Origin: Purpureocillium takamizusanense
Taxonomy: Eukaryota > Ascomycota > Sordariomycetes > Hypocreales > Ophiocordycipitaceae
Direction: 5' to 3'
DNA length: 64,000 nucleotides
NCBI RefSeq assembly: GCF_022605165.1
Contig: NC_063075.1
Location: 868,001 to 932,000, forward strand
In this document: positions 2,535 to 15,699 of the stretch, one piece after another
How the letters are laid out: each line of letters begins with the position of its first letter
How positions within the stretch are numbered: the first letter of the stretch is position 1
Program-made: the position numbers and the translations under genes
The notes under the pieces: generated by a model
Told to the model about the DNA's origin: nothing
Database searches by the model: none
The model's input: the letters and a program-made list of their open reading frames with translations, nothing else

Positions 2535-4028
2535 TCAAGCGGCGACCTCCTTGTTGGCCTGCTGCGGGGCATCGGCTTTCTCTGCCAACGCCTCCACCGG
2601 CTCGGGGGTGGGCTCGGTGACCGGCTCGGCAGGCTTAGTCTCCTCGACCTCGGCTGCCTTGACAGGCTCGACGGGCTCCGTTTTCGCCTCCGATGCCGCG
2701 ACAGGAGCGGCATCGGTCTTGGCCTCCACGGGCGCCGCAGCGGGAAGCTCGGCCGTCACGGCGGCGTCATCGCGCTTGCCAGCTTCTGGGGTCTTGGCCT
2801 CGCCCTCGGTCTTGGTCACAGTCGCCGTCTTGGGGCCATCCTCCTTGGCACCCTGCGGCTGCTCCGAAGTCGTCTGCAGCTTGACTGTCTCGCCATCTTT
2901 GACGCTCGGACCCTGACCGCCGTACTCCTTGGGCAGGCTGCCGACGATGCCCTTGAGCTCCGTCGCCAGGGTGGTGCCAGACGTCATGGGGTGAAATTTG
3001 CGCAGCGTCGCGGGCGCGAGGAAGAACTTCATGGCGCCAAAGACCCAGCCCATGATGGCAGGCACGTTGACGAAGAACTTGTGGGCTAGCAGCTCCGGGT
3101 ACGCTGTGGAAAAGGTCTGGATCGTCTCCTTGCTGGCGGACTTGACGTCGGGGTCCATGCGGAAGAAGCTGACGGACTGGTAGTCGTGCACCTGGAGCAT
3201 CTGGTAGGGGTCGGCGGCGTCGGGGCCCTCGGGAATGCGCTCCTGGATGTCGTTGAGGTGCAGCTTCTGAACGCCGAGCTCCATGAGGGCGGCACGCCAC
3301 TTGATGAACCTGTTTGTCTCGTGTCAGTCACCATGGCGAATGCGGAATATCATTTTTACACCGGGGAGAGCGCACTCTTGCACGTTGCCAAACGTGGCCT
3401 TGTTGTTCTTGACGGAGCCGTAAATGTTCCAGGTGATGACCGTCTCCTTGCCCGTGGCGGGGTCGGCGTGAACCGTCACGTAGCCCAGACCGCCAAACTT
3501 GGCGCCGTCAAAGACCTCGGAGACGAGGGCAGCAGGATTGACCTTTTTGCGCCACTCGAGGGCCGCGACGAGCTGCTTCTCGGCGGCAGCGGCATCGCCA
3601 TTGTTGGCGCGCAGAAACTTTTGCAGTATGACCTGCGAGGGCGCGTGGTCGGGGGACACGGAGAGCTCGACGCCCCACATCTCGGTATGGCCAACCTGGT
3701 CGAGCATGGTGGGGAGGCGACCTGTGAGCTTAGAAAGGGGCGTCTCGGCGGCCACGGTGGTCTTGGTTGTGATGTCGGCGCCGGCGACACCTGAGCCGGT
3801 GGCGGCATCGGTGCTGGCGAGTGTCTTGACGGCGGGTGCAGGCGCGTCGATGCCGTTGGGCGGCGCAGCAGCAGCGGGAACGGGAGCGGCGGCGGCCGCG
3901 TCAGTGCCGTTGGATGCGGCAGGGACAGCTGCTGCAGCAGCAGTCTCCGCCGCGGGAGCGTCGACGGCAGTGGGCTTCTCCGCCACCGGCGTCGTGTTGG
4001 ACGCGGGAGCTTGCTCGGTAGTCGTCAT
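2535..4028 (-). CDS. SFH5: SFH5-like CRAL-TRIO (Sec14-family) phosphatidylinositol/heme-binding protein
   Basis: Two exons, 4028-3384 and 3317-2535, joined across a 66-bp intron (3318-3383). The donor reads GTGCAA, and the acceptor CACGAG keeps frame, giving FGN|TNRFIKWR. The product is 475 aa. Residues 1-85 are an Ala/Pro/Thr-rich low-complexity leader. A CRAL-TRIO N-lobe (about 95-160) and lipid-binding lobe (about 165-345) follow, with the SFH5-typical stretches WGVELS, KFLRANNGD and SFFRMDP. The last 120 residues are a Glu/Pro/Ala/Lys-rich tail. Yeast Sfh5 is a Sec14-like protein of the ER/cytosol that can move phosphatidylinositol and binds heme through a His and a Tyr two residues apart. 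H259-D260-Y261 here has that spacing, so heme binding is a fair inference. The ATG directly follows an A10 tract in the mRNA. The long tails are unusual beside the shorter yeast protein. Family assignment is strong; the exact splice junction is less certain. Confidence 0.9.
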
Positions 4029-6824: not shown

Positions 6825-9642
6825 TCAGTGAGGAAGGGCACGGGACAGGATGCGCTCCACGGCAGAGAACTCGGCGTGCGCAACATCGGCCAGCGTCATC
6901 TTGTCAAACTGGGGCCCGAAACTGTGGCCCAGTTCGGCCCAGAAGTATCCCCAGTACATGTCCGTTTGCTCGCCCTTTTCCTGCAATTCGCGGCGGATTG
7001 CGTGTGGGCGCGTGAGCATCTCGCGCTGCGTCTGCTCTCGAATGATGGAGATGAACCACTATAATAGAGGGGGAAAAATCACGAATGTTAGTACTTTGCT
7101 ACACGTATCGGGTCCAGACGTTACCGTTGTTTCCAGAAAGGAAAAAGAAAGAAGAAGAAAGAAGAAAGAGATCCTACGTCAATGACATCCAGCGGCGCGC
7201 CGGGTCGGGGCGCCAGTGCGTACTGGTGGCGCCAGGAATAAGCGCGCTCCGGCTGACCAAAGTATCGCTGCTCGTCCTCCGAAACGTTGAGCATCCAGGA
7301 CAAATTGTCTTTCATCAGGGGCGTGAGGCCCGGGCACGAAAGCGCCGCGTTGGTCAAACGCGTCTGAAGTTGCTGCGTCAAATTGATGGGGTCGTAATTG
7401 CGGCTGACCTTGTCGGCGAGCACCTGAAGCAGCCTCTCCGTGGCCATATACATGGCATGGCGCTGGCTGAGGGTGATACGGTCCGTCACGAACCAGGGAA
7501 ACTTCTTGAGAGTGCTGATGAGACACTCGTAAGGGCGCTGAGGGCAGTCCTTGGAGTAAGGGGACTGCGTCGATAACAATACGTCAGTATAATCATCCGC
7601 GGCCTTTGCTATTGGAGGGACGCCACATACCCGATGAGGCACCTCCACGTGCTTGATCAACATCACCATCTCCTCCTCTGAGATGAAGCCACGAAAGTTC
7701 TCCCACGCAAACTGCTCGTCGTATGGCTTGAAGTGGGGCGTAGCGCCGTCCCAGATCAGGCCGCGAGCCAGAGGAAACAGGTCCTTCATCAGGCTCGCCT
7801 GGCTGGAGAGCTCGACCTCGATGGGGCGGTCTCCGAGGCGGCTCACGCGGCCCATTTTGAGGTTGAAGTGGTGCTTGTCCACTGCCTTCATCGCCTCCTC
7901 GAGGTTGACAAACTCGACGTAGGCGTCCATGGTCTTGGACGTGACCCGCTCCATGATAATATGCACGGGCTCGTCGGAGTCATTGAGAATCTTGGAGTTG
8001 CGTCCGAGAAATGCGATGACTTCGGACCGCTTTGTTGCGAATGGAATCTACACACTGTCAGTACACAGTTGCACGCAACAATCCGAATCATGAACGATAG
8101 ACTCACATTCTTGAGCTTGACGACGCCTCGGTTGATGGGCTGAGCCAGGCGTGGCGACTCCACGAAAGGGAAATTCTCCGGTGCCAATGCCACCGAGAGC
8201 AGCGGAAGGCCGCCGGGCGTGCTGATCAGCTTGGTGAGTTCAGCGGATCGCGTAACACTGGTCGCCATGGACAGAGCGGCCACAGGCGCCTGCTGGGGCT
8301 CCTCCGACGCGGAGAGCAGGCGGACGAGCTGCTGCTGCTCATGCTGCTGCTGGGCAGCGACGGACTGAGAAGATCCAACATGGGCCTGCGGGCCCTGAGG
8401 AGCATATTCATGAGTGCCCGGCTGGACAACGGCTTGGTGCTGAGCGGGTGCGGGGGCAGTTGTATAAGCAGAGTGCACGTTCGTGCGCACGATGCCGTTG
8501 GGGTCAAACTTGGGCGGCGGCTCATTCGTAACCGACGACGGGCCGGTGCATGGAGCATAGTTGCGCGGCTCCGTCTGGTTGCCCGAGCTCGCGGGGCTGA
8601 ATGGATACTCGCTGCCCGTGGCGTCACCGACCTTGGAGGACGATGGGCTGATGAGCCCAAGGACACCGCAGGAGAAGCTCTGCGGGATACCCGCCGGCTT
8701 GGGCACCGGGTTTCTGAGAACGACACCCGACGGTTTACCTCCATCATACGCCTGCAGATTCTCGCCTGCAGATGTGTTGGAGGCTCCTTCAATCGCTGCA
8801 TTAGACGAAGCAGTGTCCTAGTCTGCTCCGGCGGTCTGGCGATCGGTGCGTTGTAGAGTCTCGTTGAGCAGGTCAAAGGTCATCTGGTCGAAGGAGCGGG
8901 ATCCGCCTCCACCCCCGACGGTGCTGATGGTATTGGCTCTGGCCTTTGTATTGTTGGCGACGTGTGCATTGCGGGCCTCGCCGACAAATTCGCTGTAGGA
9001 AGAAAGGTGAGCCTGGGGACGCTGGGCGTACGTTTGAAAAGGGCTGTTGTACGGGAATGGGTGAGTCGCGCCCGGATTCTCGCCGTCGGACTGCGTCAAA
9101 ATCGAGACATTATGGCTGATCTGGGAGGAGATGCTGCTGAAGCTCTCCTGGGCCGCGTTGATTTGGCCTCCCTGAGGGGACGAGGCAAAGGCGCCAGCCG
9201 GAGTAGTACGCTGCTGAGCCGGACGATCCGCCACGCCCTCGGAAGAACGAGGACTCTGCTCAACGGCAGCAGTCTGAAAAAATTCTGTCAGAAAAGGTCC
9301 GATGGGGCGTAAAGGTCTGGGGGTCCCGCGTACGCTTGGGCCTTGGGTAATCATGGCCTCGGGAGGCTCCCAGATGCTCGACTCTGGGTTCAGAACGCTG
9401 TTGACGACAGAGGCAGCCGGTGCAGAAGGTCGGGAGACTCCAACATCGAGGTGGGCGAAAGCATTCGCGTGGCCGGTGTATCCTCCACGACCGCCACGAC
9501 CACGACCACGCGACGACCACTGGCCGGCACCTCGGTGACCGACAGGGTTGGCTGGACGAGAGTCGGCATTGTCGGGCAACAGCATTTGTCCACTGCCATC
9601 CTCGACGGGGCCCGTGTTGCTTTCACCACGGCCGTAGCTCAT
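6825..9642 (-). CDS. RRM-domain RNA-binding protein with an in-frame UAG at codon 275
   Basis: Four coding exons: 9642-8107, 8047-7631, 7564-7178 and 7058-6825. The introns (8048-8106, 7565-7630, 7059-7177) have GTGAGT, GTATGT and GTAGGA donors, and the first two have TACTGAC branch sites. If codon 275 is decoded, the product is 857 aa. Residues 1-500 are Ser/Gln/Gly-rich and disordered-looking, with an RGRGGRGG patch near 45-53. One RRM lies at about 506-595, with RNP2-like VKLKNIPF spanning intron 1 and RNP1-like DAYVEFVN, closer in style to quasi-RRMs of the hnRNP F/H kind. The remaining 260 residues are helical, of unrecognised family. The frame carries TAG at 8820-8818 and then continues open and protein-like to the next exon junction. 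Stopping there would give a 274-aa product lacking the RRM. Whether the stop is edited, spliced out (a weak in-frame intron 8766-8912 is possible), a mutation or an error cannot be settled here. Target RNA unknown. Confidence 0.85.
8810..8834 (-). promoter_or_regulatory. RNA hairpin presenting the UAG codon in its loop
   Basis: In the mRNA sense, CGGAGCAG and CTGCTTCG form an 8-bp stem with one G-U pair. They enclose the 9-nt loop ACTAGGACA, which contains the in-frame TAG of codon 275. In Fusarium and Neurospora, A-to-I edited adenosines in sexual tissue prefer a UAG triplet exposed in a hairpin loop. The structure is read directly from sequence; the editing role is inference. Confidence 0.45.
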
Positions 9643-13916: not shown

Positions 13917-15699
13917 ATGGCGGCAGTAACAGGTACGAACCCCTCCAAAGGTTATCTTCGCCACCGCCCCTCCGGGCCTCAACGCTGACCGTTGCTGTGC
14001 AGTTGTCGTCAAGCATCAGGGCAAAAAGTACGACGTCGAGGTCGACTCTGGCTCAACCGGAGAAGACTTCAAGCTGCAGCTCTTCAGCCTCACCAATGTC
14101 GAGCCCGAACGACAAAAGATCCTCATCAAAGGCGGTCAGCTCAAGGACGATGCCGACATGGGCAAGCTCGGCCTCAAGGCCGGACAGGTCATCATGATGA
14201 TGGGCAGCCCTGGCTCCGGCTCCGGCTCCTCTCAGCTCGTCCGTCCCAAGGACCAGGTCAAATTCGTCGAGGACATGACCGAGGCAGAGCAGGCTCAGCA
14301 GATCGGCGCTCTTCCGGCCGGCCTTGTCAACCTCGGCAACACCTGCTACCTGAACTCGACGCTGCAGACCCTGCGTTCCATCCCCGAACTTCAATCCGCC
14401 TTGAGCCAATACACGCCGAGCTCAAGCGGCTTCACCATGTTGCAGACGGACCTGGCAGCCCAGCTGTCGGGATTGTACACCAAGATGAGCCAGACGCAGG
14501 AGGCCTTTCCGCCCATGAACTTTCTCGGCAGCCTGCGGCAGGTCTTCCCGCAGTTCGCCGAGAAGGCCAAATCCAACAACGGCTACGCTCAGCAAGACGC
14601 CGAGGAGGCGTGGTCGCAGATTGTCCAGCAGCTGAACCAGAAGCTCAATGTCAAGGATGCCGCCGACACACCCAACCAGTCGTTTGTCGACAAGTACATG
14701 TCAGGCGAGTTCACCTCGCTGATGGAGTGTGATGAGGAGGAGGCTCGCAACGGTGGTGAAAGGGCTGTGGAGTCCAAGGACCCCTTCTACAAGCTCAACT
14801 GCCATATCGACGGCTCCACAAACCACCTCAGAGACGGCATCCTGGCAGCGCTGAGCGCGAAGATGGAGAAGAAGTCGGAGGTGCTCGGCCGGGACGCCAT
14901 GTACACCAAGACGTCCAAGATTTCGCGGTCGCCCAAGTACCTGACGGTGCACTTTGTAAGGTTCTTCTGGAAGCGAGAAACGCAGAAGAAGGCCAAGATT
15001 ATGCGCAAGGTCACGTTCCCGCAGGAGCTGGACATTGTCGAGTTTTGCTCCGATGACCTCAAGAGGGCGTTGATACCGGTGCGCGACAAAGTACGTGAGA
15101 TCAGGAAGGACGAGGAGGACATTGAGCGCGCTCGCAAGCGCCGCAAGAAGAACCACGAGCAAGACCTAGACGACATCCCCGGTGGAGCCGGACTGCCGTC
15201 GGAGAAGGAGAAGAGGGAAAAGGAGGAGAAGGGAAAGAAGAAGGCAGAAGCAAACAAGAAGGGCGGAGAGAAATCGGCGGACGCCGACACGGCCATGGGC
15301 GAGACGTACAAGACAGACGCCGAGATTGACGCAGAAAGGGACGCGGCGCTGCTGGCGGCCAAGAAGGAACTCAACGCCGTGATCGACCCGGAGTTGCGCA
15401 AGGACGACGGCGCCAACCAGTCAGGCCTGTACGAGCTACGCGGCGTGGTGACGCACCAGGGCGCGAGCGCCGACAGCGGCCACTACACGGCCTACGTCAA
15501 GAAGTCGGCGCAGGTGGACCCCAAGACGGGCAAGAAGGGCGAAGAGGACGGCAAGTGGTGGTGGTTCAACGACGACAAGGTGTCCGAGGTCACAGTTGAC
15601 AAGGTGGAGGCGCTGGCGGGCGGCGGCGAGTCGCACTCGGCGCTGATTTTGCTTTACAGGGCCATTCCGCTTCCAGGCTCAGACGGCACAATGGAGTAG
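13917..15699 (+). CDS. UBP6: ubiquitin carboxyl-terminal hydrolase Ubp6/USP14
   Basis: Two exons, 13917-13932 (16 nt) and 14003-15699, around a 70-bp intron with donor GTACGA, branch GCTGAC and acceptor TGCAG. The product is 570 aa. Residues 1-75 are a ubiquitin-like domain that docks on the proteasome base subunit Rpn1. The USP catalytic domain follows: Cys box GNTCYLNSTLQ with nucleophile C120, the QQDAEEAW segment, His box SGHYTAYVK with H499, and WWFNDDKV with N528/D529 as the third catalytic position. Residues about 370-435 are a Lys/Glu-rich insert between catalytic boxes, more acidic-basic than in yeast. The enzyme trims ubiquitin from proteasome-bound substrates and recycles it, acting in cytosol and nucleus. 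All catalytic residues are present, so it should be active. Domain order and length match the family, and I regard the call as secure. Confidence 0.96.

Follow-up and report, generated by a model that had tools for sequence, protein, structure and literature searches.

Several papers describe fungal genes in which an in-frame UAG is corrected by A-to-I editing. In Fusarium graminearum, RNA-seq showed that the UAG of PUK1 and of 69 PUK1-like genes is changed to UGG, and at PUK1 a genomic G is already present in Magnaporthe oryzae and Claviceps paspali (PMC4817773). CHE1 of the same species encodes a C2H2 factor and has a conserved UAG in a hairpin loop, with both flanks conserved and the domain 3' of the stop. 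It is edited in hyphae, as proven by cDNA. Gene models at CHE1 show three kinds of artefact: they end at the stop, begin after it or splice over it (PMC11169179). In Neurospora, the OLD-ZAO antiviral module also relies on premature-stop correction at UAG, with a preference for hairpin loops, and the OLD deaminase gene adjoins its target (PMC12754623).

Fungal editing has a preferred local context. U is favoured at -1 and A or G at +1 and +3 (PMC11156358). In Fusarium, hairpin loops harbour 62.4% of the editing sites, with more editing in stable ones (PMC4817773). On the side of the machinery, mRNA editing has been tied to Met-Val 500-501 of Ame1, 31 and 30 residues before S531 (PMC11087585). 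Going by titles and abstracts, we found no report of A-to-I recoding in insect-associated Hypocreales.

Here we describe an RRM gene of Purpureocillium takamizusanense with a TAG in its frame, at 8820-8818. We consider this TAG a probable premature-stop-correction site (probability about 0.75), at which UAG would become UIG and be read as Trp. The gene lies in the window, by which we mean the whole stretch of 64,000 nucleotides that was analysed (C8:868001-932000 of the assembly, which has 35.57 Mb in 14 contigs). Read from splice sites and frame, it lies on the minus strand, beginning with the ATG at 9642 and ending with the TGA at 6825. Its features are, in window positions:

9334-9642, minus strand: exon 1a of the RRM gene, with the ATG at 9642-9640; matches the start of P0121 (JDV02_008307).
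9274-9333, minus strand: 60-nt in-frame, stop-free intron, GTACGC...TTCTGACAG...TTTTTTCAG, containing CTGAC.
8107-9273, minus strand: exon 1b, broken by the in-frame TAG (from the frame).
8821-8898, minus strand: stretch RSFDQMTFDLLNETLQRTDRQTAGAD immediately 5' of the TAG, its first 20 residues identical in P0122.
8818-8820, minus strand: in-frame TAG, candidate UAG-to-UIG (Trp) site with the A at 8819; codon 255 spliced, 275 unspliced.
8806-8830, minus strand: predicted hairpin, stem CGGAGCAG/CTGCTTCG of 8 bp with one G-U, 9-nt loop ACTAGGACA.
8680-8738, minus strand: 59-nt intron implied by JDV02_008306, whose start ATGATG at 8747 is in another frame.
8048-8106, minus strand: intron 1, 59 nt; P0001 and P0002 continue LKN-IPFATKRSE over it.
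7631-8047, minus strand: exon 2, predicted qRRM domain (profile, structure model, Foldseek).
7565-7630, minus strand: intron 2, 66 nt; the spliced product equals P0001 from the 5th residue of P0001.
7178-7564, minus strand: exon 3, predicted helical C-terminal domain (frame and structure model).
7059-7177, minus strand: intron 3, 119 nt; the spliced product again equals P0001 from its 5th residue.
6825-7058, minus strand: exon 4, predicted helical C-terminal domain and regular TGA (frame and structure model).

With its four introns (60, 59, 66 and 119 nt) removed, the frame has 838 codons, and the TAG is its sole interruption. All four introns contain CTGAC or CTAAC. Exon 1 is open for 274 codons 5' of the TAG and for 237 codons 3' of it, up to the donor GTGAGT at 8106; in its remaining two frames, 7 and 14 stops occur. 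A sequence-only reading of this DNA had already seen the 237 codons and the good donor, as well as the three exons beyond it (8047-7631, 7564-7178 and 7058-6825). It had also called the TAG codon 275, which is right when counted unspliced from the ATG at 9642, but it had missed the 60-nt intron, without which the TAG is codon 255. The short form of 274 aa that it proposed is hence a product of 254 aa once 9333-9274 is spliced. This intron is left out of the public models P0121 (P. takamizusanense, 254 aa) and P0002 (P. lilacinum), and the P. lilacinum open reading frame P0122 reads through its counterpart. Being in-frame and stop-free, it is easily mistaken for coding in raw sequence.

Elsewhere in the window, positions 13930-15699 hold a long frame that, judged by eye, may encode a Ubp6-type ubiquitin hydrolase (LVNLGNTCYLNS).

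The surroundings of the TAG fit what has been published on editing sites. In a 61-nt fold the arms 8830-8823 and 8813-8806 pair, and the loop 8822-8814 holds the TAG. The 9-nt loop on an 8-bp stem had been predicted correctly, although it had been placed at 8810-8834, about 4 nt away from its actual position at 8830-8806. Around the A at 8819, position -1 is U, +1 is G and +3 is A (UAGGAC); by sequence and predicted fold, both context and loop match the published preference. The free energy of the hairpin is ordinary for its composition (z of -0.81, -0.88 and -1.22). Lying in a loop is common as well: the two strands of the window together have 947 TAG triplets, and for 317 of them a 61-nt fold puts the triplet inside some hairpin loop. 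A loop closed by at least 8 bp was found for 12 of the 947; hence the placement of the TAG in the RRM gene is less common.

The public annotation supplies the next piece of evidence. The product before the TAG, 254 aa long, equals P0121 (JDV02_008307), and the product after the TAG contains P0001 from the 5th residue of P0001. These two matches to the two halves mean that the annotation places the break between its two gene models precisely at the TAG. Taken at face value, the division into JDV02_008307 and JDV02_008306 describes two genes: translation would really end at the TAG, and the RRM part would come from a separate downstream transcript or from an internal start. RNA-seq from a shaken broth culture (SRR16888993) and P. 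lilacinum proteins went into the annotation (PMC9302088), and the models of several relatives likewise begin shortly 3' of the stop place. We nevertheless regard two genes as improbable. The first in-frame Met after the TAG is residue 184 (window position 8268), and P. lilacinum P0002 has no Met for 202 residues past SGIVL. The annotated start of JDV02_008306 is out of frame and requires the 59-nt intron at 8738-8680. We judge this intron an artefact, since it removes PSGVVLRNPVPKPAGIPQ, whose counterpart is present in the P. lilacinum protein. Finally, the models of Metarhizium rileyi and Ustilaginoidea virens read straight on, with Trp at the place.

All three artefacts described for CHE1 are seen around this TAG. 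Models end at it (P0121 and, in Metarhizium anisopliae, P0123), begin downstream of it (P0001) or splice over it (P0002 and, in Metarhizium brunneum, P0031). This suggests one cause behind split, truncated and differently spliced models in several genomes.

The closest comparison is with P. lilacinum. P0122 comprises 7 member sequences (22 contigs) and was assigned to this species by its identity to P0002; the two are the same over residues 1-108 and 129-256 (236 residues), which flank the 20-residue intron. P0122 ends at the codon of the TAG (...TFDLLNETLQRTDRHKGGAN, against ...TFDLLNETLQRTDRQTAGAD in P. takamizusanense), a position known as a protein end rather than as a codon. The model P0002 masks the stop region by joining QMT straight to TLLRLASGIVL. 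Both flanks are conserved. Identity to P. lilacinum is 57% (P0002) and 65% (P0122) 5' of the TAG, and 64% for the part of exon 1 that lies 3' of it. With the N-terminal half overall at 65% identity, the common end has persisted through considerable divergence.

Could the stop be a recent nonsense mutation, the mark of a decaying gene or a sequencing error? A premature stop is formally a mark of a pseudogene. However, P0122 has its end at this codon too, which neither a private error nor a young pseudogene would be expected to produce, and the rest of the 838-codon frame is free of stops. The assembly underwent four rounds of Illumina polishing (PMC9302088), and the part after the stop, used as a query, shows 83% identity to P. 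lilacinum across 95% of the query. Mutation, decay or error is therefore very improbable.

Beyond Purpureocillium, relatives of the part after the stop were taken from the best 120 of 278 matches, and 57 of these 120 were used. In M. anisopliae, the annotated protein P0123 is 77 aa long and ends, at the protein level, where M. rileyi P0033 has Trp78; the two proteins are identical at 58 of 77 residues without a gap. U. virens P0035 also has Trp78. In P0033 and in P0035 this Trp is one of just two within the first 300 residues. With the LL motif as the starting point, no gap is needed to bring the Trp of U. virens to the P. takamizusanense stop; the Trp of M. rileyi is offset by one residue relative to the Purpureocillium stop, and that of Cordyceps sp. 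RAO-2017 lies four residues nearer the LL motif.

Several models also appear to change course at this place. In M. brunneum P0031, EGTKSKTVDQ follows immediately on LLSH. Such a junction requires the codon before E to end in AG, the acceptor; should this codon be a stop, like that presumed for M. anisopliae, it must be TAG. If the stretch has the same length as in M. anisopliae, the intron so implied would be about 39 nt long. Models of M. album, Conoideocrella and several Cordycipitaceae apparently resume here too (EGTKSR, ETESQT, NGTPAK), which is suggestive only.

The picture among relatives is mixed, and the stop/Trp correspondence rests on short motif-anchored segments. A MAFFT alignment of 23 N-terminal parts did not line up the stop column. 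The LL motif was found in 14 of the 23 sequences: three end at the stop place, three have Trp near it and eight have neither (M. anisopliae BRIP, Pochonia, four Claviceps, O. australis and Beauveria). Trp is thus not universal, and some of the eight seem, from their sequences, to splice at the stop place. An alignment of orthologues had been proposed as a check for TAG or TGG. It yields, at the protein level, protein ends or Trp at the place, with 8 of 14 showing neither.

Introns in relatives bring up another explanation, namely that the TAG is spliced out within an in-frame intron. This could be the 8912-8766 intron proposed earlier or an intron whose acceptor is the TAG. The models of P. 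lilacinum (P0002), several Metarhizium, Claviceps and Cordycipitaceae apparently have an intron here. One kinase frame of the P. takamizusanense genome contains an intron-like stretch that ends in TAG. At the TAG of the RRM gene, the 200 nt to each side provide 16 GT-AG pairs, 40-250 nt long, that would skip it in frame. Yet none of the 16 donors is nearer to the TAG than 8912, and none matches all three tested donor positions. The nearest GT 5' of the TAG is indeed at 8912, 92 bases away, in keeping with the earlier remark that about 80 bases are free of GT. Three pairs use the TAG as acceptor; they have no CTRAY 8-60 nt upstream, in contrast to the CTGAC or CTAAC of the gene's four introns. 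Any intron that skips the TAG would remove the 20 identical residues 5' of the stop. Moreover, the introns in relatives are mutually inconsistent, even among Metarhizium models. A skipping intron is, in our view, distinctly improbable.

The same long product would arise if a near-cognate tRNA let ribosomes read through the UAG, and such readthrough would also favour a conserved stop. The codons after the TAG are GAC ACT, and to our knowledge this is no readthrough context. Readthrough does not specially predict alternation between stop and Trp, whereas Trp is the one sense codon that A-to-I editing can make from UAG. We therefore give readthrough very little credence.

Editing of the UAG to a Trp codon, as first proposed from sequence, fits best given the end of P0122, the contrast of end and Trp among Metarhizium and Ustilaginoidea, the annotation artefacts and the machinery genes. 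A premature-stop-correction site should be an in-frame UAG within otherwise open, conserved coding sequence, and orthologues should share the stop or carry Trp at the codon. The first is found here, and so, at the protein level, is the second.

The genome appears to be equipped for such editing. One gene, which we take to be Tad2-like by eye from its deaminase motifs, has exons with HAE...PCVMC (C8:502147-502302 and 501637-501726); another, presumably Tad3-like on the same grounds, has HCV...PCIAC (C5:2775649). There are three DUF726 genes. In the one at C5:2120778-2121834, a Met-Val pair precedes the nucleophile Ser by 31 and 30 residues, just as in Ame1; the other copies have SL (C1) and AS (C9) at that spacing. 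Judged by motif, the required Tad2, Tad3 and Sordariomycete-type Ame1 are all present.

Genes of the kinds edited in Fusarium were also sought in this genome. The matched stretches of the RID-type DNA methylase and of SPO22 are free of stops, which is a point against the editing reading. PUK1 was not identified by way of protein-kinase frames with stops (140 matches). Five of the stop-bearing loci were inspected by eye: in one, the match opens with the TAG, and in four the stops lie in intron-like stretches. A MAT alpha-box gave no match here, and likewise none in the control genomes.

We also considered the RRM gene as a target of an OLD-ZAO module and rejected this. The OLD gene of Neurospora adjoins its target, while the RRM gene lies on C8 and PF14441 matches only at C2:3677176 and C2:5741802. 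The second match (C2:5741802-5741987) adjoins C2H2 motifs, from about 4023 of the region C2:5737000-5746900. Upstream in that region, a frame has an in-frame TAG with its A at 3672, 61 open codons before it and 136 after it; a stem of 5 bp closes the 7-nt hairpin loop that holds this TAG. By sequence, this region looks like an OLD-ZAO pair with a UAG site of its own.

What would be made once the stop is corrected? The full product consists of a low-complexity N-terminal half, a predicted qRRM and a predicted helical C-terminal domain. The RRM of exon 2 has a profile match to hnRNP F (E 3.2e-4). The AlphaFold model of P0001 has a mean pLDDT of 77.7, with low confidence up to about residue 144; Foldseek's best match is 5uzm (E 1.5e-3), with none at or below 1e-3. 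Profile, AlphaFold and Foldseek agree on a predicted qRRM like those of hnRNP F/H, ESRP1 and Glorund. The protein shares the RRM fold with these but differs from them in its single qRRM, its long low-complexity N-terminus and its helical C-terminal domain. For the latter, Foldseek returned no clear solved relative. According to PMC11156358, the Fusarium editing cofactor FIP5 has two RRMs; we claim no link between it and the RRM gene.

We propose that the RRM gene encodes one long protein across the TAG. In vegetative cells, judging from the open frame, unedited mRNA would give the 254-aa N-terminal piece alone. When active, a Tad2-Tad3-Ame1 complex would deaminate A8819 in the hairpin loop; UIG would be decoded as Trp and the RRM part would be made. 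In Sordariomycetes such a complex is active mostly in fruiting bodies, and editing may occur mainly there; the restriction to fruiting bodies suggested from sequence would be an extrapolation from other species. What we observe is the stop, its loop, the conserved flanks, the shared end or Trp in relatives' proteins and the machinery genes. We infer that editing takes place, at which stage it does so, how the edited mRNA is translated and what the short form might do.

The RRM gene thus has the conserved UAG in a hairpin loop, the conserved flanks, the three artefacts and the downstream domain in common with CHE1. It differs in encoding a qRRM protein known so far from genes, where CHE1 has its cDNA. 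With PUK1 it would share the change of UAG to UGG, and some relatives have Trp where PUK1 has a genomic G. For the PUK1 set the correction was seen in RNA-seq, whereas we infer it here from sequence. With OLD-ZAO it would share correction of a UAG and the hairpin loop.

If this reading is right, a conserved candidate recoding site is added for the insect-associated Hypocreales. Since the target is itself predicted to be a qRRM protein, editing would turn on a further RNA regulator. More tentatively, and with real doubt, a switch between UAG and Trp may have been kept in an RNA-binding protein across two insect- or plant-associated families of Hypocreales, P. lilacinum included.

A paper cited by the authors of the assembly names the sexual stage of P. 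takamizusanense as Cordyceps ryogamimontana (PMC9302088). For P. lilacinum we know of no described sexual stage, which is a point against the editing reading. Were editing restricted to fruiting bodies, a stop retained in this species would betray cryptic sex; otherwise, editing must occur in another condition. The site offers a direct test of whether an 'asexual' Purpureocillium keeps an editing-dependent gene.
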